From a virus, in the IMG/VR virus record IMGVR_UViG_3300049847_000435, positions 22,103-86,102 of that record: DNA of 64,000 nucleotides; one strand, written 5' to 3'. The notes under the pieces were generated by a model that worked only from the letters and a program-made list of their open reading frames with translations, was not told the origin of the DNA and made no database searches. The position numbers were made by a program, and so were the translations under genes. Below are positions 7,227 through 54,189 of this stretch, one piece after another. The stretch's first letter is position 1. Each line of letters starts with the position of its first letter.

Positions 7227-7781
7227 ATGCTAAAAAACGACACATGGATACGCACGATGGCGACCGAGCAAAAAGTGATCGAGCCGTTTGTAGATAGGCA
7301 GGTGAGATCGGGCGTTATCTCCTACGGGCTAAGTAGCTTTGGCTACGACATCCGCGTAGCGCGTGAGTTTCGCATCTTTTCGGCATCCACTGGCGAATTG
7401 ACCGTAGTGGACCCTAAGAACTTTGACGAGCGCGCATTGGTTCCGTTCGAGGGTGACGTGTGCATTATTCCACCCAACAGCTTTGCGTTATCGCGCAGCG
7501 TCGAATACTTTCGGATGCCACGCAACGTCATGGGGCTGTGTCTCGGAAAAAGCTCATACGCCCGCGTGGGGATCGTGACGAACTTCACACCCTTTGAACC
7601 GGGATGGGAAGGTCACGTCACGATTGAGATATCAAACACGACACCCTTGCCCGCTAAGGTTTACGCCAACGAAGGCATCGCCCAGGTGCTCTTTTTCGAG
7701 GGCGAACAGCCAGAGGTCTCCTATGCCGACAGGCACGGGAAGTATCAGGCGCAAACGGGGATTACGCTGGCGAGGGTATGA
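7227..7781 (+). CDS. dcd: dCTP deaminase
   Basis: 184 aa, ATG after AAAAGGA. Dcd deaminates dCTP to dUTP, feeding thymidylate synthesis. The family pattern runs the full length: [13 protein letters not shown] near residue 31, [13 protein letters not shown], the active-site block [25 protein letters not shown] and GIAQVLFF. The length matches bacterial Dcd. Together with ThyX downstream it forms a phage dTTP supply route. Confidence 0.95.
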
Positions 7782-7796
7782 CAAAAGGGAGAAATC

Positions 7797-8165
7797 ATGA
7801 GCACAATAACATCTGAACGCACAATCGCAACGCAATGTATTAAGTGCGACTTTTGCGACGCTACATCCGAATCAAAATCCGAAACCGGAACAGTATTCTA
7901 TCGGATGTACAAATGTTATGGATGCGGCAGGGATTTATGCGGCATTCATGCAGTCTATCAAGAACTATTGCTTACACACCTCGTAGATTGCAATTATCTG
8001 TGCAAAGAGTGTGATGTATCATTTGTACCGGCGAGAAATGAAGTGTCAGTCGTTATGGCGGAAGCTTACAGGAAAAGAGAGGAGATTATTAATGCGTGGA
8101 AGACTAGCTGTGAGCGAGATGCGACACTTGCAAAGGAAAACCATGCAACCATACTACCAGGATGA
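7797..8165 (+). CDS. Cysteine-rich putative zinc protein, 122 aa
   Basis: The ATG follows AAAGGGAG. Cysteine pairs CIKCDFC, CYGCGRDLC and CNYLCKEC indicate two zinc sites of treble-clef or ribbon type, and a helical C-terminal third follows. Its end overlaps the next methylase by 23 bp, indicating translational coupling. No specific family recognised. Confidence 0.7.
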   Translation: MSTITSERTIATQCIKCDFCDATSESKSETGTVFYRMYKCYGCGRDLCGIHAVYQELLLTHLVDCNYLCKECDVSFVPARNEVSVVMAEAYRKREEIINAWKTSCERDATLAKENHATILPG

Positions 8166-8841
8166 TTCAATAACTCTATATCTCGGAGACTGCCGAGATA
8201 TTCTACCGAGACTAAACGGAGAATTCTTCGTCTTCACCGATCCACCCTATAACGTAGGCAAGAATTATGACGGTTGGAACGACTCTATGCCGGATGGCGA
8301 ATATTTTGATTTTTGCCAAGAGTGGATCGGTGCGTGCAAGCGCATCTCGACCGAGATGTGTATCTATCCACCCAAAAAGCACCTACTAAAATACTGGAAT
8401 ATGCTCGGTGAGAACTACCAGCAAATCATTATGACGTGGACGCCAGAGGGTGCATTTCGCTATGGATACGTAGATCAATTTGCTACCCTACTGTCGAACG
8501 CCAAGCCCAAAAAACGTACAAAGAATGTATGGGGCGGCGTTCAAGTTCAAGGTCTCGGTTATTTCTTCAAAGAAGATAACTTCGGACACCCAGGCTACAC
8601 GAGCGAGGACATAACTAGCCGGGTCATCAGTAGTCTTGCTGGTGAAGTCACCGTCCTCGATCCGTTTGGTGGAACCGGAACCACCGCCAGAGTCTGCAAA
8701 AATAGCGGACTCAAATGCGTAACAATTGAATATTCAGAAAAATGGTGCGAGTTCATGGCGATGCAGAGATTGAGACAGAAAAGCATATTTGAGCCAACCG
8801 CACCTTTCCAACCTCTTGCATTTCAGCAAACTCTATTGTAA
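8143..8841 (+). CDS. DNA adenine-type methyltransferase (DPPY)
   Basis: 232 aa from ATG 8143 with AAAGGA upstream; the frame is open from 8011 but that part lies inside the previous gene. Motif IV DPPY is at residues 33-36 and motif I LDPFGGTGTT near the C-terminus, giving beta-class order. The start (SITLYLGDCRDILPRL) is typical of N6-adenine enzymes. Compact phage methylase with no partner endonuclease visible. Confidence 0.9.
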   Translation: MQPYYQDDSITLYLGDCRDILPRLNGEFFVFTDPPYNVGKNYDGWNDSMPDGEYFDFCQEWIGACKRISTEMCIYPPKKHLLKYWNMLGENYQQIIMTWTPEGAFRYGYVDQFATLLSNAKPKKRTKNVWGGVQVQGLGYFFKEDNFGHPGYTSEDITSRVISSLAGEVTVLDPFGGTGTTARVCKNSGLKCVTIEYSEKWCEFMAMQRLRQKSIFEPTAPFQPLAFQQTLL

Positions 8842-40091: not shown

Positions 40092-40997
40092 ATGTACACG
40101 GTTACGTTATCGAAATTCAAGGGTGGAGTCGCCGCCACCGAAACGACAGTCCAGTTGGCGACCCTCTACGCGTTAGCCGGGTGGCGCGTGTTGGTTGTGG
40201 ATACCGACCCCCAAGGCGGAGCGACAAAGCGCTTTTTCCCCAATGGCGATGGCGATGCTCTGCCCACGTTAGCGGACGCGGTGCGGGCATACGTTGCCGA
40301 CCGCAAGAGCCCAGTCACGCCATTGAGCCAGGTAAACCGCATCACTCGCGTTCGTCAGGACGCTCGCAAGAAAGAATTTACGCCGATCTCTGTAGTGCCA
40401 GCCAGTCGAGCGCTTCAGGATGAAGAAAGCAACATCGGCAATATGCCGGTGGGGCGCACGAAGGTCTTAAAGCGCATGTTGGCGACGGTCGCCAACCAAT
40501 ACGACTTGTGCCTGATCGACACCCCACCAGTGTTCGGCTACCTGAGCCGCAACGCCGTGGTGGCAGCCAATGGGCTGCTATTGCCGTTGCTGCCAGAACC
40601 CGCCAGCTTCAACGCGTTGCAGGAGTTGCGCAACGAACTAGCGATGATGGCAGAGGAGGACGAGATACCCGCCATCGTCGGCACCATTGCCACTCGCTTC
40701 TGTGGCAAAAGCATCCGCCACGAGATCGGTGAGACGCTACTGAAAATCGCAGGCGGCGAAAATAGCATCGAGGCATTGAGTCTATTCGATGGCAGCCAGC
40801 ACGAATTTAATGCAGGCTCTATCAACGGATTTAAAGCTCCCTATCTTGGCAGTGTCGCCAACGACAACAGTCAAGTATCGCCAGCCAATCTACGCAAGGC
40901 ATACAAGCCAATCGCTAAGGCACTAGCGAAGAGTATCGGGCTGGGCGTGCTCAACTTTGAGGTGATGGAGGTGCAGAATGAGACAATTTCAAATTGA
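40092..40997 (+). CDS. ParA-type partition ATPase with altered P-loop
   Basis: 301 aa with TAGGAG before the ATG. ParA layout: deviant Walker A region KGGVAATETT (residues 10-19), A' VLVVDTDPQGGATKRFF, Walker B CLIDTPP and PEPASFNALQEL. Normal ParA reads KGGVGKTTT; here the signature lysine is kept but the nucleotide-binding GK is replaced by Ala-Ala. ATP binding may be weak or altered. The next gene overlaps by 20 bp. Partition of an episomal prophage is the natural role. Confidence 0.87.
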   Translation: MYTVTLSKFKGGVAATETTVQLATLYALAGWRVLVVDTDPQGGATKRFFPNGDGDALPTLADAVRAYVADRKSPVTPLSQVNRITRVRQDARKKEFTPISVVPASRALQDEESNIGNMPVGRTKVLKRMLATVANQYDLCLIDTPPVFGYLSRNAVVAANGLLLPLLPEPASFNALQELRNELAMMAEEDEIPAIVGTIATRFCGKSIRHEIGETLLKIAGGENSIEALSLFDGSQHEFNAGSINGFKAPYLGSVANDNSQVSPANLRKAYKPIAKALAKSIGLGVLNFEVMEVQNETISN

Positions 40998-41832
40998 GCA
41001 AAGCCAGGAGCGCCAGCTCGTGGAGATGGCAAAGTCTTTCGATTACCGTCTGTCCGATGAGGATTCCCGCGAAGAAGCGGTAGAAGCGACCGTGGCGGTA
41101 TTGCGCATCCACAAGCAGTTGCATGGCGCTGCCTGGGATATGGGGCAGCTATTGACCGAACAAAAAGCGCGCTTAGATCATGGCACCTTCGGCAAGTGGC
41201 TGAACGAGGTATTGCGCTGGGAGCCGCGCTACGCGCAGCTTTACATGCAAATCTTCACGCGTTGGCCGGATAAAGAACTTTACCTTTCGTCCGGTGTTGG
41301 GCTGATGGATTTCTCAAAGCAGATCGCTTTATCCGCCGACAGCGCGCCGGAGTCCGCCACACAGCGCGTTGTCGAGATCGTCGCCGAACGCGGTGTAGCG
41401 CCCAGCGTACGCGAGATAAAGACGATTGTACGCGAAGAACAGGTCAAGGTGGCGATTGAATTGCCGCTTGAGGCAACCTGCGACGTAGTGCGCAAGTACG
41501 CTCGCAATCAGGCAGTCGACCAGCGCTTTGAACGCGTTTCGTCTGTCACGATGGATGCCTTGCAGACGCTCGCGCCACGCGGCACGAAGTTAAGCGAGGG
41601 TGTTGTTAATCAGGCGAAGTCCCAGGTGCTCGACGAGATCGAAACGGTTCCCGCACCGGCGATAGTGCGATCTACTCAGTTCAGCCCGCGTTACGTGCCC
41701 GCCGATGATTTGGATCGGCAAATCACGCAACGGGTAACGCTCAGTACTCAGCAATGGAACACACTCGCCCAACTGGGCGATGGTGACTGCGACAGGGGTA
41801 TAGCCAGACTTCTGGAGCGAATAGAGGAATAA
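40978..41832 (+). CDS. DUF3102-like protein, probable ParA partner
   Basis: 284 aa. Residues 40-95 (VAVLRIHKQLHGAAWDMGQL, LTEQKARLDHGTFGKWLNEV) match the DUF3102 pattern as I know it, seen in phage and mobile-element proteins near ParA/ParB genes. Unlike ParB it has no GxxRxxA box. Overlap with parA suggests it acts as a centromere-binding or adaptor protein. Confidence 0.65.
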   Translation: MRQFQIEQSQERQLVEMAKSFDYRLSDEDSREEAVEATVAVLRIHKQLHGAAWDMGQLLTEQKARLDHGTFGKWLNEVLRWEPRYAQLYMQIFTRWPDKELYLSSGVGLMDFSKQIALSADSAPESATQRVVEIVAERGVAPSVREIKTIVREEQVKVAIELPLEATCDVVRKYARNQAVDQRFERVSSVTMDALQTLAPRGTKLSEGVVNQAKSQVLDEIETVPAPAIVRSTQFSPRYVPADDLDRQITQRVTLSTQQWNTLAQLGDGDCDRGIARLLERIEE

Positions 41833-41978
41833 GGTGCGCTTGCCAAAGCCAGGAAGCACAACAAGCGCACCCAACAAAAAAAAGCGCAGCGGAGCTACGG
41901 CTTCGCTGCCAATTCTATAGGATTTTCCACTTTTTTACAACTGGCGAAAAGCAGGAAAATCCTTACGAGGAATCGACA
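41833..41978 (+). other. Intergenic region with three hairpins
   Basis: GGTGCGCTT/AAGCGCACC (41833-41871) directly after the stop, GCAGCG...CGCTGC (about 41887-41909) and AGGATTTTCC/GGAAAATCCT (41919-41963). None has a T-run. They may stabilise or process mRNA, or serve as partition sites for the ParA system. Confidence 0.5.
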
Positions 41979-43817
41979 GTGCAACGACTACGCATCGCAA
42001 TTTTCCTATTGGTGGCAGGACTCATCCTATCATACCCCGGTCTTGGCGAGATGATCGCCGAGATGATCGCCAAGATGATTGCCGCAGCTAATACTACCGC
42101 TGGCCTTTGCCTGGGTGGCGTTGTCGTTGCACTGATCATCACGCTGGGCACGGTCATGGTCTCGCTCGTGGCGCAATGGCGCGGCATGATCAATGACCAG
42201 AACCGCCCCGTGGATGGGTCCTACCCGCTGCAACGCGTCAAAAACAGAGATGGCAGCACAACCATTATCGTGCCGGACAATATTTATGATGTTGGCGTAC
42301 GCGTGCTGCCCACCGGCGAAGTTGTTGCGCTCACTCAGAACATCCCGCTCCCGCTTTTCGCTTCATTTCGCGCCGCTGTCGAGAGTAAGCACCGCGTACA
42401 AGCTGCCATCCCCGGCGATAAAGTGTACACGACGAGTAATGGTGGTCTATTAGGGCGCTTTCTGGGGAACGGGCGCGGGAATAGCGGCATGATTGCCCCG
42501 CCACGCGTCACCGCCCCAATGGCGCGACTGGCAGCGGGATCATACGATAAGCATCCACGCCCGATTGTCGATTCCACCGCGTATCAGGTGGAGGAAAAGG
42601 AGGAAGTTGAAGAGATCGCACGTCCCGTACAACCAGTTACCGCGATTGAAGCTTTCCGAGGCAATACAAATACAAATCTTGCACTCGGTCAGACCGTCGA
42701 GGGCGAGGTAGTCTACTGGGATTGCACCGAGACTCCACACGTCCGCTTTCACGGAAAAAGTCAGGGCAGCGGCAAGACCAATGCCATCAAGCAGGTCGTG
42801 TTGGGTGCTGTGCGCAGTGGGGCGAGCGTGATCTTGCTGGATCGTCGCAACTTCAAGGATTGGGGCGATTATCGCCAGCACGTAGAGTGCGTTGACACGC
42901 GCGACCCCTTGCGATTCGTGGATGCCATCACGCAGTTGCGTGACATCTACCAGGAGCGAGATCGCCAACTTGGTGAAGCTGGCGTCGGCACTATTGCCCA
43001 AATGAAGCGACCGCTTCCGCGCATCTTTGCTGTAATTAGCGAGTTTGGCGCGCTATGTGATGTTGCTCACGCCGAGGGCTTGCTTGAGGATGTTTTGCAG
43101 CCGCTACGCTTAGTGTTGCGCGAAGCTGGTGCGACTGGCGTTCATCTAATCTTTGAAGATCAGGTAGTGGAAAAGACCTGGCCGCGTGCGGCGCGTGCGA
43201 ACTCTACGCCGATCACCGGCTACCTTCCGCAAAACTCGGCAAGCGCAGGCGACTACTACCACGCTCACAAATTGCGCCCGTACGAGTTCCACTACGACGG
43301 TCGAACATTCAAGACGTGGGACATGAAGATTGTCGCTCCGCAGATGCTCGCCGCCGTCCAGCCGATGACGCGTGGGCGCGTCCTAAATCCCACCAATACC
43401 GTGCGCAAAGAGACCATCTCCGTCGTGCCACCCGTCACCGAACGCACCGTGCAGCCGGTGGCAGAACAGGTATTCGACCCGCGCAAAGCCGACAACCGCG
43501 ACATCGTTTTTCGCTGGCGAAAACTCAATCCGAACGGGAGCCAGGCAGAGTTTCGTGAGTGGTGCGCAATGCAAGGCGTTGACATGGCGCGTGGCTACAT
43601 CAGTGACACGTTCGCCCTCTACGATCTCTGGCAATGGCGAGATGCCCACCCCTCTGGCAGCCAAGCGGAGTACAATAATGGGCGCATAGACGCCGGTAAG
43701 ATGGAAGTGCCGAGCGCAAAACTAGTAACGCTCTGGGCAACCTATGACCGTATCTGCAAGCCGCTACCGCCGCAGGTGAACATCTACCGTGATGGAAGCG
43801 GAATTAGGCTACAGTAA
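41979..43817 (+). CDS. Membrane HerA/FtsK-like ATPase, 612 aa
   Basis: GTG start. Two N-terminal membrane segments (about 5-19 and 45-66) with an amphipathic EMIAEMIAKMIAAA repeat between them. A beta-rich stretch follows, then the motor with Walker A GKSQGSGKTNAI (about residue 260) and Walker B RIFAVISEFGAL. The C-terminal part has two copies of a NPNGSQAEFREW/HPSGSQAEYNN element. The design recalls DNA-translocating coupling proteins and FtsK; a role in DNA transfer, segregation or injection is inferred. Confidence 0.82.
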   Translation: MQRLRIAIFLLVAGLILSYPGLGEMIAEMIAKMIAAANTTAGLCLGGVVVALIITLGTVMVSLVAQWRGMINDQNRPVDGSYPLQRVKNRDGSTTIIVPDNIYDVGVRVLPTGEVVALTQNIPLPLFASFRAAVESKHRVQAAIPGDKVYTTSNGGLLGRFLGNGRGNSGMIAPPRVTAPMARLAAGSYDKHPRPIVDSTAYQVEEKEEVEEIARPVQPVTAIEAFRGNTNTNLALGQTVEGEVVYWDCTETPHVRFHGKSQGSGKTNAIKQVVLGAVRSGASVILLDRRNFKDWGDYRQHVECVDTRDPLRFVDAITQLRDIYQERDRQLGEAGVGTIAQMKRPLPRIFAVISEFGALCDVAHAEGLLEDVLQPLRLVLREAGATGVHLIFEDQVVEKTWPRAARANSTPITGYLPQNSASAGDYYHAHKLRPYEFHYDGRTFKTWDMKIVAPQMLAAVQPMTRGRVLNPTNTVRKETISVVPPVTERTVQPVAEQVFDPRKADNRDIVFRWRKLNPNGSQAEFREWCAMQGVDMARGYISDTFALYDLWQWRDAHPSGSQAEYNNGRIDAGKMEVPSAKLVTLWATYDRICKPLPPQVNIYRDGSGIRLQ

Positions 43818-46759: not shown

Positions 46760-47347
46760 CTACCTTCTCTCAAAAGTAATCACATAGCAAACGTGAGCAT
46801 TCCCCGGCAACCCCAAACTCGCTACCACGTCCGACATGATCATCCCGCTGGCATCGATCAGCGCAATCGCCAACGGCCCTAGATTCGGCGGCATAAAGCC
46901 GCCATCGATCACGACCTCCTCACGCGGCGCGTGCCTGATCACGTCATCAAAGTGGTCAATCTCGCCGTTGTAGCCGGTAAACAACCCGACCATTTCCGAT
47001 CCGCCGATCTGATTGACGCGTGCAACATGGTTGCCACCCGCCTCTAATTCGTCAATAAGGCGCACATCAGTCACGCGATATAGCTTCTGCGGCTGGGTAT
47101 GTACCTGGATATGTTGCGCCAGCACTTTACCGCCGTTTGACCAATGCCGTCGCGCATTTTGTGCGCGTGGGTCTGCCGAGTCTGTGTAGCTGCCGCGCCC
47201 ATACACCACCGGGTTCGGGTTAGTCGGAGGCGTGATAATTGGCGGCGTCACAATCGGCGGCACCGGCACCGCGTTGATCTCACTTTCTAAAATAGCGTGC
47301 GCCTCACCAATCAGCGCGCAGGCGCGTGCAATATTCTGTGGATTCAT
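46760..47347 (-). CDS. Late-operon protein with Pro-rich linker, 195 aa
   Basis: Start ATG 47347 with AGGAGA upstream; the longer frame reaches into the metalloprotease gene. A helical N-terminus (IARACALIGEAHAILESEIN), a linker of VTPPIITPP repeats and a beta-rich C-terminal domain ending NAHVCYVITFERR. It could be a virion or lysis-related protein by position. No family recognised. Confidence 0.7.
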   Translation of the reverse strand: MNPQNIARACALIGEAHAILESEINAVPVPPIVTPPIITPPTNPNPVVYGRGSYTDSADPRAQNARRHWSNGGKVLAQHIQVHTQPQKLYRVTDVRLIDELEAGGNHVARVNQIGGSEMVGLFTGYNGEIDHFDDVIRHAPREEVVIDGGFMPPNLGPLAIALIDASGMIMSDVVASLGLPGNAHVCYVITFERR

Positions 47348-47358
47348 AAAATTCTCCT

Positions 47359-48069
47359 TTACCGAAAAGTAGCCTGTCGCTTCGGGTAGAGTTGGGCAAC
47401 GAGTCGCTTGTCTCCATCCGAGAGCGCATAGTTCCATTGTGTCGAATAGCCGTCCGTGGTCAACTCTGCCGGGATCGGGTAGAGCATGATCGATTGAGGA
47501 TCGAATGTTGTGGCGTGAATATGCGACCCCGTCACACCGGACAGAACATTTATTTCCGTCTGCACTGCACTCCATCCATCTACCCGCGCATGATAGGCGA
47601 GCACCTTGTCCCGATCCCAGTGGATACCGCCCTCCGGGTGCTGGTGTTCGTGCAGCAAGCCCAACGCGTGACCGAACTCATGTAATGCCACGCGTCGAAT
47701 TTCGCTATCCTGAGAGCGTTCGGTCAGCCAGCCCAGTTGCATGGTGGGTTGACCGGGAGCGATATCCAGCGCATCCGTGCCGACATAGGACCACGACCCA
47801 CCAGGCACGAATGTGATCCGAATCGTGCTCTTTAGGTTTCTCACTTGATCGGGCGTGACGACAAGTTGGAATTTTACGTTTGCGTATTCCATCCACTCTA
47901 TAGCGGTACGAAATACCTTTTGGCGCAGAACTGGCGATCCATCCAAAAAGCCAACGGTGAGGATTTGTCCAGGTTGCCAGAGTCGGTCACGGTCAGCGAC
48001 TCCACGGGACGTTGTTTGAGAGGATTGTTTGGGGCGGATTCCCAGCGCGCTACATGCGCGTGTAATCAT
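47359..48069 (-). CDS. Metzincin-type zinc metalloprotease
   Basis: 236 aa. The zinc-binding motif HEFGHALGLLHE at residues 130-141 is complete (three His and the catalytic Glu), and SIMLYP at 193-198 is the methionine turn. This is the astacin/matrixin (M12/M10) pattern. No signal peptide, so export would be by lysis or as a virion part. ATGA overlap with the holin-like gene places it in the lysis cluster. Likely substrate: host surface-layer or envelope protein (inference). Confidence 0.9.
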   Translation of the reverse strand: MITRACSALGIRPKQSSQTTSRGVADRDRLWQPGQILTVGFLDGSPVLRQKVFRTAIEWMEYANVKFQLVVTPDQVRNLKSTIRITFVPGGSWSYVGTDALDIAPGQPTMQLGWLTERSQDSEIRRVALHEFGHALGLLHEHQHPEGGIHWDRDKVLAYHARVDGWSAVQTEINVLSGVTGSHIHATTFDPQSIMLYPIPAELTTDGYSTQWNYALSDGDKRLVAQLYPKRQATFR

Positions 48070-48347
48070 CCGAACAAAAACTCCTTGATTTTAGATTTTG
48101 GCTCAATCGGGGCAGCCATACTTAGCGTGCCATCGGGTGCGTGTAGCATCCTCTGCTTTTCTTCTGCCCCCGACACCTGCATGAATTTCACCAGGCTATT
48201 GATTACTAAAATCACCGCGCCGGCAATCCCGGCATCGACCCAGCCATGCGACTGCGCATCGCCCAGAAAGGCAATTAGCGCTGGCCCCATTGTCAGCACG
48301 AGAGCCACCCAAAACCCAGCGGCTTTTGATTGTAAAATGTCTTTCAT
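48066..48347 (-). CDS. Holin-like two-pass membrane protein, 93 aa
   Basis: Two hydrophobic helices (FWVALVLTMGPALIAFL and GIAGAVILVINSLVKFM) separated by a short turn, then a charged C-terminus. Size, topology and position beside a protease are those of a phage holin, though no endolysin of known type is visible. Overlaps both neighbours by 4 bp. Confidence 0.72.
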   Translation of the reverse strand: MKDILQSKAAGFWVALVLTMGPALIAFLGDAQSHGWVDAGIAGAVILVINSLVKFMQVSGAEEKQRMLHAPDGTLSMAAPIEPKSKIKEFLFG

Positions 48348-48799
48348 GTGTTCACCTTTTTCTGTAAATCTAACTTGTCCGCATCTTTAAAGATCATTCC
48401 CGCGCTATCTCGAATCATCCAGACTATTGCCATCCAATTAAAAAATCTTGCCCAGGCAACCAACGGGCGATACTGCTCAATGCTCAATACCGGGTGCGCC
48501 CCTGTTGTGAGCGTCAGCAGGGCGAGCACTATCGTCTCCGACGCGAAATAGAAAGAGGTAGCCAGTGTGAGCCGGATGGGACGAATTTTAATATAGTAGA
48601 TGAGCAGGGTTACAGTTAGCATGAATGATGTCGCCGTCATGATCGGGTACAAAATTGACATCCAATACTGAACATTTGGACGGGACTGAGAGTTGTTAGC
48701 CATGAGGATGGCTAGCACTGTAAAGAAAATGCGCGCCGCGGTTTGTAGGTGAAACCGCACGCTCCATTTACTGCTCCGTATTAATTTAGTACCGATCAT
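48344..48799 (-). CDS. Multi-pass membrane protein, 151 aa
   Basis: Start ATG 48799. About four hydrophobic helices (ARIFFTVLAILMA, YPIMTATSFMLTVTLLIYYI, FASETIVLALLTLTTG, ARFFNWMAIVWMI). Positioned between the caspase-like and holin-like genes with short or negative spacing. It could be a second holin, an antiholin or a membrane partner of the caspase-like protein. Confidence 0.72.
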   Translation of the reverse strand: MIGTKLIRSSKWSVRFHLQTAARIFFTVLAILMANNSQSRPNVQYWMSILYPIMTATSFMLTVTLLIYYIKIRPIRLTLATSFYFASETIVLALLTLTTGAHPVLSIEQYRPLVAWARFFNWMAIVWMIRDSAGMIFKDADKLDLQKKVNT

Positions 48800-48803
48800 A
48801 ATC

Positions 48804-49616
48804 TTACCTTTGAACCATGTACAGCAATAGGCTGGCGATGCCAACCGCGGCAATGAATGATGCTCCAAATATAGCCCACAAAAGCGCTTTATTATCCCTC
48901 TGTGGTGTTGCGTGCTCTGCCCGAAAAATGGTGAGCATCGGCTTTATTTCGTTCCTGACGCTCTCTTCGATGTCGGCAACCCTCGCCTCTAGTATCGCAT
49001 GGCGTTGGATGATTCCGATCTCACCTAGTCTCCCGCCGCCGATTGATCGCTCCAACGCGTCGAGTCTCTGTACAACTTCGTCGCCGCGTCTCACGATTAC
49101 GTTTTTACCTGGCAGGTAGCGAAACCTTGACCCTGTCGGGTCTACCCTGTCCCTTGCCTCTTTGTAGGAGTGCGTCTCGCTTGAGCCCAGAACTGAGTAG
49201 AACATCTCGGAAAAGTCAATCGCATCGTCATTTTCGATAGCCGAAATGGTGAAGATGCAATCTGACTCGCATCGGCTGGCGATGAGTTCGGCGACCTTTT
49301 CAGAGGAACACGTGTTGAAAAAGACGAGTTCTGGCTTCCCTGTCTGGATATACATCACGATCATATCCAGCGGGATGATCTCATTACTCGCAACAAAGCC
49401 ATCTTCGCACAAGTGCCCCGCAAAGTGGATGATATTGAAAGGTTTTTCGTCAAGGATTGCGCGCAGGATGTCTTGTCTGCGCACCGGCTCGGATAGTTCG
49501 CGTGTTGAGTTGTGCGCCGCAATTGCAACAACTTCGCGCTGCAATTGCGGCAATGGCTCAAAGCCAGGCACATCCGTTATCGAGACCTTGACGATCAACA
49601 CTCTCAAGCTTTCCAT
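48804..49616 (-). CDS. Caspase-like (CHAT) protein with C-terminal membrane anchor
   Basis: 270 aa; GGGGAGA before the ATG. Residues 1-170 follow the CHAT/caspase fold: NIIHFAGHL with catalytic-type His68, then ELVFFNTCSS with Cys103, then ISAIENDDAIDFSEMFYSVL. Both catalytic residues are present. A coiled coil (about 195-240) and a C-terminal membrane helix (about 245-267) follow. It should face the cytoplasm, attached to the membrane. CHAT proteases are known in bacterial defence and programmed death; in a phage late operon it is unusual. Confidence 0.85.
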   Translation of the reverse strand: MESLRVLIVKVSITDVPGFEPLPQLQREVVAIAAHNSTRELSEPVRRQDILRAILDEKPFNIIHFAGHLCEDGFVASNEIIPLDMIVMYIQTGKPELVFFNTCSSEKVAELIASRCESDCIFTISAIENDDAIDFSEMFYSVLGSSETHSYKEARDRVDPTGSRFRYLPGKNVIVRRGDEVVQRLDALERSIGGGRLGEIGIIQRHAILEARVADIEESVRNEIKPMLTIFRAEHATPQRDNKALLWAIFGASFIAAVGIASLLLYMVQR

Positions 49617-49690
49617 ACATCTCCCCGACTATTATTAATGGCAGACAAAATCTTAAAGGCTCGTCGAAGAGTTCTCCGCGGTAAAGCGAA

Positions 49691-49719
49691 TTTGTATGTT
49701 TATCTCCATCCTTCGTCAA
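49691..49719 (-). promoter_or_regulatory. Candidate promoter for lysis cluster, minus strand
   Basis: On the minus strand TTGACG (49714-49719), a 17-bp spacer and TACAAA (49691-49696), 75 bp before the caspase-like gene. The -10 is weak. It would let the 49616-46760 cluster be expressed apart from the tail genes. Confidence 0.5.
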
Positions 49720-50167: not shown

Positions 50168-50743
50168 ATGGCAAACAAACGAACGGAGTTAATCACAAAG
50201 CAGTGCTTGGCATGTGGAAATGATTTTAATACATGTCCACCTGGGAAATCTAGCCGTATATGCAGAGCTAAGTACGATCAAGTTTTCTGCTCCAACGCTT
50301 GCAGTTGTAAATCCAGATACAGAAGCGGTATTGACTGTAACGGATTATCAGAAGTAGATGCCGCATACATTGCCGGTTTTCTTGATGGTGAAGGATCGAT
50401 AATGATAATCGGTAGAGCCGACGCATTTATGATACGTGTTTCATTCGCCAACACTAAACGGAATGTATTGGAATGGATTAGAGAGAAGACGGGTGCAGGG
50501 AATATCACTGAAAAATCCAGAGATAATCCGAATCACGCTACTTCGTATATTCTTCTAATCAATTCAAATGCGGCATTCACCCTACTTCAAAAGATTTCAA
50601 AATATCTTATCATCAAGAAGATTCAGTCCGAACTTGCTATCGATTTCTTTGGCAAACTGCGCACCCCCAGACTTAAGTCGGATAGGGAGTGGCAGTCTAC
50701 CGAAAGAGACAGAATGAAAGAACTGAATCGACGTGGCGGGTAA
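50168..50743 (+). CDS. LAGLIDADG homing endonuclease with zinc finger
   Basis: 191 aa. An N-terminal zinc finger (CLACGNDF...C...CSNAC, residues 13-45) precedes a single LAGLIDADG motif AAYIAGFLDGEGSI at 65-78, with the catalytic acidic residues intact, and typical following blocks (RVSFANTKRNVLEWI, LLQKISKYLIIKKIQ). One motif means it acts as a homodimer. It is the only plus-strand gene in the late module and ends 3 bp from the stop of the intron-split gene, so it is probably the mobility factor of that intron. Confidence 0.92.
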   Translation: MANKRTELITKQCLACGNDFNTCPPGKSSRICRAKYDQVFCSNACSCKSRYRSGIDCNGLSEVDAAYIAGFLDGEGSIMIIGRADAFMIRVSFANTKRNVLEWIREKTGAGNITEKSRDNPNHATSYILLINSNAAFTLLQKISKYLIIKKIQSELAIDFFGKLRTPRLKSDREWQSTERDRMKELNRRGG

Positions 50744-51630: not shown

Positions 51631-54189
51631 TCACAATTCGCCATCAAGTTTCTTAGTGGACGAGAATAGCCCACTAAGAATACTTTTAGAATCGTGAAAC
51701 TTACCAATAAGTGTGGTTTTCGCCCACGACCCCGACAATTTTGCCTTTCCGATAAACGTACCCAAACCAGAGAACAATCCAACGAGAATCGCCGACGTAG
51801 AGACGTATCCAGACAGGCGCATTGAAACGCTTTTATTGATAGCGCCACCAGTAGAAATCACCCCACTAAGAGCGCGCATAAAAACCCTAATTAACAGAAG
51901 TCCGCCAGCGATGGAGATATTGGCGGATAGCGACCGTATAGCCATCCTCGCTTGATCGCCAGACGAATTAATCAAACCCGCGAAAGTAGTAACTGTTCGC
52001 TTCACTACACTTCCACTCGTGACAATACTGGCAGATAATCCGCTCGCGGTACTTTTCGTTATCGATCCAGTCGTTCCAATTAATCCAGATAGCAGAACGA
52101 GGATAGAGCGAATTGCATTTAAAACGCCAGAGGTAGAGACGGAACCGACCAGTGCTCTTCTTACCTGTTTAACGATTGTCGCCGTTAGTGCAATTGATGC
52201 GGTCAACGTGGTAGCCATTCGCTTAACTACCGCGCCACTCGTAGCAACTGAACCGCTCAACAGCCGCACAAAAACACGAATAGCTGATACAGTTGCCGAT
52301 GATGTGATTGAGCCAAGTAACGATTTGTATATTTGCTTGATTACCGTGCCACTTGCTGCGACCGTGCCACTGAGCGAGCGAGCAAAGCTAATCGTTCTCG
52401 ACAACGCTCCGCCTGTGGCAATCGTCGCCGCCAAACTACGCCATGTTTGTTTTACAACCGTGCCGCCTGTTGTAACCGTGCCACTGAGTGAGCGTAAAAA
52501 TGTCTTTAGCGCCGCCGCCGTGCCACTCGTAGTAATCGAACCGCTAAGAGTTCTCGCTAACAGCTTTATAGCTGTGCCACTGGTAGCAATTGAACCTTGC
52601 AATGCTCGATATGTAGAGCGTGTTAGTGCCCCCGATGTCGTTGCTGTGCCTGCCAGTAATTTAATAAATGTGCGAACAGCGGAAAGCGCACCACTGGTAG
52701 AAATAGAGCCACCAAGCACCTTCAATGTAGCCTTGATAAGCGATGCGCTTGTTGCTAGTGACGCCGCAAGCCCCTTTCGTGTGCTTTTGATTAATGCGCC
52801 TGCGGTAGTAGCTGTACCCGATAAAATCCTAGCTATAACTCTCTGTAACGATCCAGCCAATGCAACTGTACCGCCGACTACTTTCAGCGCCGATCTGGTA
52901 ATTGATGCGCTTGTTGTGACTGTACCTGTAACAGATTTTCTAGCCATGCGAACAAGCGAACCGCTTGACGTAATCCCACCCGATACCAAGCGTCCAAACT
53001 GCCTGAGAGCCGTACCGCTTGTTGTAATTGCACCACTTAACAGCTTAGAGGTAGATTTTATGACGGTTGCCGTTGGCGTTAATGAGCCAGCGATAGCCTT
53101 TCCCGCTCTACGAACCAGCGCACCGCCTGACGACAGCGAACCGGAAACCACTTTCAATGTTCGTATCGTTGCTGCGCCACTGCTCGCTATGGAACCGGAT
53201 AGCGAGCGAATAACCAGTCTCAATCCAGACAATGTTGCTGCTGATGTAATCGAACCAGACAATGAACGAAGCGTCCTTTTCAACAAAGCTCCGCTGGTTG
53301 TGGAGGTTCCCGATAATGCACGTGATATTGATTTAATCAGCGCCCCGCCTGTTGTCGCAGTGCCGGATAAGGAACGATAAATCGCCTTAATCAATCCACC
53401 GGCGGGAGTCATCCCGCCGGTCTTGGATGTTGATGTTTGTTTTACTGGTACGCCAGCAGGAGTCATACCAGCAGTTTTAGATGTCGATGTTTTCTTGACG
53501 GGAGCGCCAGCGGGAGTCATTCCGCCTGATAAAGATAGTAGATTCGCATTACTACCGCTCGCCAACATCGGCAATAAGTAAGGCGACCATGCAATAGGTG
53601 GGCTAGATTCCTCCCACCCAACTGTACCTGTTGCCGTCCAGAGATTCATCGTTCCCGAATCGATCAGATGGTCGCCTGGATTGCCAGCGTGCCATGACAG
53701 CAAATCTACAGTATTGATTGGTACAACGAATTGCATTTCGGCTGTGATGTCATCAGCATTCATCGCTTTATTGAAGACTTTGAAAGCTTCGCCATAAGCG
53801 CTAACATTTTCGCCGTCGTTTGTATTTCCGATAAACAACTTTTGTGCTGCCGCTGTGCCTGACGGATTGCCAGTGACTACAAGCTGACCATTCAGCCAAC
53901 CTTCCATCTGTCCAGCACCGGAGCCACGGCATACTAATGCCATGTGATACCAGCGACCTACTACTAGGTTGAATGATGCCGAAGCACTGCCCGAACTAAA
54001 CACCTTAAAATTTAATGCAGTGTTCGTGTATAGTTCAATGTATGCGCCGGTCGTGTTACCGAAGCTGAAAAAAGCACCGTTCGCCCCAGGGGTAGCGGGC
54101 AACATGAACCATCCCATCATCGTAAAATTGTAGATGGCTGGTAAATTTGTTGTTCTGCTTAGACTGGATGAACTGAATCTGTATGCCAT
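51631..54189 (-). CDS. LamG-domain fibre with long tandem repeats, 852 aa
   Basis: Residues 1-165 form a LamG/concanavalin-like lectin domain (YNFTMMGWFMLP, FNLVVGRWYHMALVCRG, GWLNGQLVVTG, KLFIGNTND). Then three GGMTPAGAPVKKTSTSKT-type units and about 28 repeats of roughly 20 residues with the pattern RSLSGSITTSGALVKR. Such arrays probably build a long rod. A host-binding tail fibre or adhesin is likely. The opposite strand carries a long shadow frame caused by the repeats. Confidence 0.85.
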   Translation of the reverse strand: MAYRFSSSSLSRTTNLPAIYNFTMMGWFMLPATPGANGAFFSFGNTTGAYIELYTNTALNFKVFSSGSASASFNLVVGRWYHMALVCRGSGAGQMEGWLNGQLVVTGNPSGTAAAQKLFIGNTNDGENVSAYGEAFKVFNKAMNADDITAEMQFVVPINTVDLLSWHAGNPGDHLIDSGTMNLWTATGTVGWEESSPPIAWSPYLLPMLASGSNANLLSLSGGMTPAGAPVKKTSTSKTAGMTPAGVPVKQTSTSKTGGMTPAGGLIKAIYRSLSGTATTGGALIKSISRALSGTSTTSGALLKRTLRSLSGSITSAATLSGLRLVIRSLSGSIASSGAATIRTLKVVSGSLSSGGALVRRAGKAIAGSLTPTATVIKSTSKLLSGAITTSGTALRQFGRLVSGGITSSGSLVRMARKSVTGTVTTSASITRSALKVVGGTVALAGSLQRVIARILSGTATTAGALIKSTRKGLAASLATSASLIKATLKVLGGSISTSGALSAVRTFIKLLAGTATTSGALTRSTYRALQGSIATSGTAIKLLARTLSGSITTSGTAAALKTFLRSLSGTVTTGGTVVKQTWRSLAATIATGGALSRTISFARSLSGTVAASGTVIKQIYKSLLGSITSSATVSAIRVFVRLLSGSVATSGAVVKRMATTLTASIALTATIVKQVRRALVGSVSTSGVLNAIRSILVLLSGLIGTTGSITKSTASGLSASIVTSGSVVKRTVTTFAGLINSSGDQARMAIRSLSANISIAGGLLLIRVFMRALSGVISTGGAINKSVSMRLSGYVSTSAILVGLFSGLGTFIGKAKLSGSWAKTTLIGKFHDSKSILSGLFSSTKKLDGEL

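Follow-up and report, generated by a model that had tools for sequence, protein, structure and literature searches.

Tail-anchored CHAT proteins among the late genes of phages: a putative membrane-tethered protease family

Bacteria are known to deploy CHAT proteases as effectors against phages. What, then, is such a protein doing in a phage? The question is raised by an open reading frame at 48804-49616 of the window, which is the whole 64,000-nucleotide stretch analysed here, the right 64 kb of an IMG/VR virus record of 86,102 bases. A first-pass annotation, made from the letters alone, had described the product as a membrane-anchored, caspase-like (CHAT) protein in a phage lysis cluster. One correction concerns the strand. 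The frame lies on the minus strand; the plus strand carries stops throughout 48804-49616, so no frame is open there. The encoded protein, 270 amino acids long, is a putative membrane-tethered cysteine protease, with a CHAT domain, a probable coiled coil and a membrane helix in that order.

The window protein scores 14.7 bits against the Pfam CHAT model (PF12770), below the curated cut-off of 24, and matches no PHROG, NCBIfam or PADLOC family. Its link to CHAT at the sequence level comes instead from tblastn and profile searches. A tblastn search of plasmids picks up CHAT proteins of bacteria that share 30-37% identity with it (best E 2e-5). When the window protein, its counterpart on a contig called L004 and eight CHATs from plasmids are aligned, all ten sequences keep H64, H68, N101, C103 and S105 unchanged. 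A profile made from 16 divergent relatives, with neither the window protein nor that of L004 in it, gives the window protein 103 bits (E 2.3e-30); the best of 2,000 shuffled controls reaches 5 bits.

The two residues singled out in the first-pass annotation are where a CHAT protein would have them. The putative catalytic His68 (codon at 49413-49415, minus strand) lies within HFAGH, and the putative catalytic Cys103 (49308-49310, minus strand) within FFNTCSS; both contexts fit the HxxGH / NxC dyad pattern. A sub-threshold profile match to caspase-3, read from the hmmsearch alignment, places His68 on the His of THG and Cys103 on the Cys of QAC. Structure prediction, which had been proposed as a check, returns a caspase-like fold. 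The AlphaFold2 model, built from an 18-member alignment, has a mean pLDDT of 83, and of about 90 over residues 1-170. Searched with Foldseek against the PDB, it finds the SAVED-CHAT structure 8TL0 first (E 7e-10) and caspases after it (E about 1e-4), and the family profile also matches 8TL0 by sequence (E 8.8e-12). On this model, the N-terminal part of the product is a CHAT domain with the caspase/separase fold. Fold and dyad together suggest that the protein is proteolytic.

Behind the CHAT domain, residues 174-235 (48912-49097, minus strand) form a linker for which AlphaFold2 predicts two helices, at 174-191 and 198-235, with pLDDT of about 50-76. These fit the coiled coil that had been proposed, and a coiled coil is probable, at low to moderate confidence; the match of this part of the profile to GCN4 coiled-coil chains is weak (E 0.37). 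The single membrane helix called at the C-terminus is firmer. It spans residues 243-266 (48819-48890, minus strand), appears in the hydropathy plot, and is modelled as a helix with pLDDT of about 90. The last 30 residues are identical at 28 positions in L004. Since only about four residues follow the membrane helix, the CHAT domain is predicted to face the cytoplasm.

The protein does not stand alone. A search of viral contigs with the ten-sequence profile, then iterated, gathered 18 distinct sequences including that of the window, from 17 phage contigs and one metagenomic contig. All 18 share one architecture: an N-terminal CHAT domain, a helical linker or coiled coil, and one or two C-terminal membrane helices. 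Identity within the family falls to 20%, and only 11 columns of the 18-member alignment are invariant. H68 and C103 are among these, and are likewise invariant in the eight plasmid-borne bacterial CHATs, whereas H64 is often Trp across the family. The Pfam CHAT model matches all 18 members at E values up to 0.1 (best 1.1e-12). An integrase is found in nine of the 18 records, the window's included; most records are fragments.

Little of this family appears in existing collections. It was not found in PADLOC or NCBIfam, nor in PHROGs with the window protein as sole query. A tblastn search of 50,697 GenBank phage records with five members found no match, and searches of open-licence PMC papers yielded no phage-encoded membrane CHAT. 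One viral protein in BFVD, A0A1P8DJ94, resembles the window protein in length and fold (E 1.7e-12) and has no name. Pattern searches of viral contigs with single proteins (the CHAT protein, its 151-aa neighbour and a metzincin) found nothing, and a scan for a DNA motif gave two matches, neither accompanied by a CHAT gene and both judged to be chance. A family of tail-anchored CHATs in phage late genes is apparently present but undescribed.

How is this family related to CHAT proteins already known? In a maximum-likelihood tree, all 18 members lie on one side of a branch with 99/97 support, away from the sampled cellular CHATs, in a tree whose cellular sampling is small, whose long branches meet, and whose root is not known. 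The coiled coil-CHATs of prophages L016-L018 and L020 (around 7425-8516) also fall across that branch. These, too, are CHAT proteins of (pro)phages; unlike the window family, they carry their coiled coil at the N-terminus, which matches the PADLOC candidate PDC-S66, and have no membrane helix. The one in L020 follows genes for tail proteins, a small membrane protein and an amidase-like protein. To call the window protein a captured defence protein, as had been suggested, is therefore too narrow a description for a protein with its own architecture in an established phage-borne family apart from the sampled cellular CHATs.

CHAT itself, CHAT effectors in CRISPR, and those of Borvo and other defence systems are already known. 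The nearest solved structure, by profile as well as by fold, is SAVED-CHAT (8TL0), an effector of type III CRISPR, with which the His and Cys align. The window protein differs in lacking a SAVED domain and a CRISPR context, and in having a membrane helix and a place among phage late genes. The TPR-CHAT of Craspase (Csx29, type III-E) uses a His-Cys dyad, H585/C627 (PMC9729208); here, the window protein differs by its membrane tether and by having neither TPR nor gRAMP partner. Its 270 residues hold the CHAT domain, helices and a transmembrane segment only, leaving no SAVED or TPR fusion. BovA of Borvo, a CHAT defence protein, is the sole PADLOC model touched by the family. Seven of the 18 members match it weakly (best E 2.6e-4), though not the window protein, and the match in L027 covers a 56-position stretch of the model's 711. 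Finally, EAD1-CHATs and stand-alone CHATs from cyanobacteria, Shewanella and Staphylococcus plasmids share the dyad and show 28-37% identity over residues about 45-154; they adjoin ATPase, WD40, NACHT or EAD1 genes and not virion genes.

The phage that carries the window gene has a Terminase_6C terminase, a Mu-like portal, a Mu-like protease, a gpT capsid protein and two tyrosine integrases. Judged by these genes, the phage is temperate and its head is Mu-like. On the evidence of Pro/Thr-rich repeats and a YLPIVVK tail among its proteins, the host may belong to the Chloroflexota. ParA-like, ParB-like and FtsK-like genes stand consecutively at 40092-43817 (FtsK-like, Pfam E 0.0014), a row that suggests a plasmid-like prophage state despite the two integrases. 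A run of minus-strand structural genes leads from the portal to the record's left end, and no terminal repeat is seen in the 86 kb. If the contig is circularly permuted, the structural run would resume at the right end, and the CHAT unit would close it, near the promoter-distal end of the late genes. An 852-aa laminin-G tail fibre at 51631-54189 carries about 20 degenerate LSGTATTSGALIK-like repeats; its L004 homologue carries a different, SDSGSGSD-like repeat. A plus-strand LAGLIDADG-like homing endonuclease frame at 50168-50743, called from its motif (AAYIAGFLDGEGS), is inserted between late genes of the opposite strand.

Upstream of the CHAT gene lies a gene for a 114-aa, BppU_N-like phage protein (49749-50093, minus strand; PHROG 1084, E 4.7e-8; Pfam BppU_N, E 0.09). 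Downstream, as first described, come two membrane proteins and a metzincin in tandem, all on the minus strand. The gene for the first, a membrane protein of 151 aa with about 3-4 helices and no known family (48344-48799), starts 4 nt past the CHAT stop. An ATGA overlap joins it to the gene for a 93-aa, two-helix holin-like protein (48066-48347; two transmembrane segments; Pfam Phage_holin_3_1 at E 0.019, under the cut-off), and another joins that gene to the one for an astacin-like metzincin metalloprotease with a HEFGHALGLLHEH motif (47359-48069; Pfam Astacin, E 1.8e-5). The NCBIfam model AbsR1 finds the metzincin as a relative (7e-29), although far below its cut-off. The metzincin occupies the spot where an endolysin is expected; no M23, SLT, Amidase_2 or NlpC/P60 domain was found in the 86-kb record. 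The unit ends with a 196-aa protein of no known function (46760-47347).

Does this arrangement hold in other phages? The gene order is kept in L004, a 7-kb contig binned, doubtfully, as Rhodoferax: BppU-like protein, CHAT, membrane protein, holin-like protein, metzincin. The tail genes upstream have diverged there. In L024 and L027 three genes follow CHAT; they encode an anchored protein that has an outer domain, then a holin-like protein, then a large hydrolase. The hydrolase of L027 carries M23 and lysozyme-like (SLT) domains, so that a holin-like and an endolysin-like protein stand in tandem with CHAT, and a large terminase is next. The anchored proteins of L024 and L027 are homologous (E 4e-25) and, possibly with that of L015, belong to a different family from the 151-aa protein. 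Other members sit elsewhere in the late genes. In L015, CHAT precedes an anchored protein and then apparent terminase and portal genes; it stands ahead of what looks like a large terminase gene in L023 and L040, and behind tail genes in L019 and L038. In a clade of eight, placed beside head-tail connector genes, six lie between head and neck/tail genes, and two have an unreadable context. Neighbours given here without a family match are named from a reading of their sequences. In L019, a response-regulator-receiver-like frame (7491-7961, beginning MKRILLIDDD) stops 3 nt before the CHAT gene.

The phrase "lysis cluster" thus finds support in the window, L004, L024 and L027, each with genes for a membrane protein, a holin-like one and a hydrolase in tandem, and does not fit the eight-member clade or L019, L038, L023 and L040. 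No neighbour is constant across the family. What does hold is the late-gene position, wherever the context of a phage lineage could be read. In L024, L028-L030, L019, L037 and L040 the CHAT start codon overlaps or almost abuts the late gene ahead of it (L028-L030, of the eight-member clade, overlap the preceding frame), and co-expression with late genes is therefore likely.

The 151-aa protein had been put forward as a possible substrate, and gasdermin-protease pairs as a comparison. The protein is multi-pass, has no Pfam match, and gives a poor AlphaFold2 model (pLDDT 56). It has no viral relative beyond the window/L004 lineage, and as a family-wide substrate it was rejected for that lack of conservation.

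Comparison with L004 also speaks to selection. The CHAT proteins are 87% identical with dN/dS of about 0.03, the membrane neighbours 57% with 0.15, and the holin-like proteins 82% with 0.11; dS is near saturation. By these estimates the CHAT gene is the slowest-evolving of the three, and under strong purifying selection.

The same pair of sequences shares a conserved 5' leader of 93 nt (49617-49709, minus strand), containing an 18-codon frame (MEINIQIRFTAENSSTSL) that stays open in L004. Nucleotide identity is 87% in the first 60 nt of the leader and 78% in the CHAT gene. In both, the leader can fold to pair the ribosome-binding site and the start codon. The start region of the window leader has an unpaired probability of 0.09, against 0.36 in shuffled leaders; 0.4% of shuffles are as occluded for the window and 2.2% for L004. 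Neighbouring genes are normal in this respect, and longer context weakens the window signal to 10%. An occluded start was not seen in the other family members tested, and as a family-wide rule it was rejected, the signal being confined to the window and L004 among the loci tested. In the window lineage, CHAT synthesis may be restrained by masking of the start codon; this is a lead only. No sigma70-like promoter was seen before the window gene, and no Rfam family was found within 44-56 kb of the window.

What might such a protein do? The reading we favour, tentatively, is that of a late, membrane-tethered protease, activated by proximity, that helps to end the infected cell. Here, CHAT would build up in the membrane late in infection, and its coiled coils would gather copies together. 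Proximity would turn the protease on, as it does initiator caspases, and the active enzyme would cleave, at the membrane, a protein of the host or of the phage. Cleavage would let infection end on time, either as a trigger or timer of lysis or by taking down the host envelope. Since the family has no fixed partner gene, its target is more likely to be a host protein or some general phage process than any one neighbour. The fold, the dyad, the late position, the tandem with membrane and holin-like genes (window/L004, L024, L027), the likely co-expression with late genes, the missing sigma70-like promoter and the purifying selection all argue for such a role. Against it stand the eight-member clade, placed among head-tail genes without lysis neighbours, the want of a constant partner, the low-confidence coiled coil, and a dS near saturation. 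Most phages, of course, lyse without such a gene.

A close rival, which we consider possible though doubtful, turns the protein against other phages. The tethered CHAT would sense a second, foreign phage, in a lysogen or during infection, and kill or depolarise the cell, much as defence CHATs do. Late genes are, of course, normally silent in a lysogen, and the CHAT gene is embedded in or coupled to late genes, with no promoter seen before it in the window; nor does the protein have a sensor domain or defence neighbours. Yet its closest sequence relatives are CHATs that lie beside EAD1, NACHT, AAA or WD40 genes, and both the contact of seven members with BovA and the integrase in half of the records fit this rival. 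It has, in addition, a precedent: PdpSau of Staphylococcus aureus prophages, anchored in the membrane and genetically linked to holin and amidase, causes abortive infection (PMC10127798). PdpSau has an N-terminal anchor, is OB-fold-like and contains no CHAT, making it an analogue of the window protein rather than a relative.

The late protease of the favoured reading might also act in a stricter sense, as a death switch: tail-anchored CHATs that accumulate late and activate by proximity would themselves set the moment of lysis. Stated so specifically, the idea is unlikely.

Less probable still is a counter-defence role, in which the protein would cleave, or act as a decoy for, a component of host defence at the membrane, for example one from a CHAT, gasdermin or CRISPR-protease pathway. 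Anti-defence genes are frequent in phages, and the family is homologous to defence CHATs; but such genes are usually early where this one is late, an intact dyad is not what one expects of a pure decoy, and no specific target presents itself. That CHAT is a scaffold or structural late protein, using its fold for binding only, is improbable indeed. In its favour, the window/L004 branch has a shortened hairpin, and L69 stands where a Gly normally follows the catalytic His. Against it, all 18 members, at 20-30% identity, keep both residues of the dyad, whereas H64 changes freely to Trp.

A separate, conserved, membrane-tethered branch of CHAT in phage late genes suggests that caspase-like proteolysis is also a tool of phages. 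The 18 sequences provide a concrete set with which to ask whether phages use caspase-like proteases to time lysis, to exclude rivals or to disarm hosts. They bear as well on how death enzymes of the caspase fold move between hosts and viruses. If the death switch were true, an enzyme of programmed cell death would have been repurposed as a lysis timer for phages.
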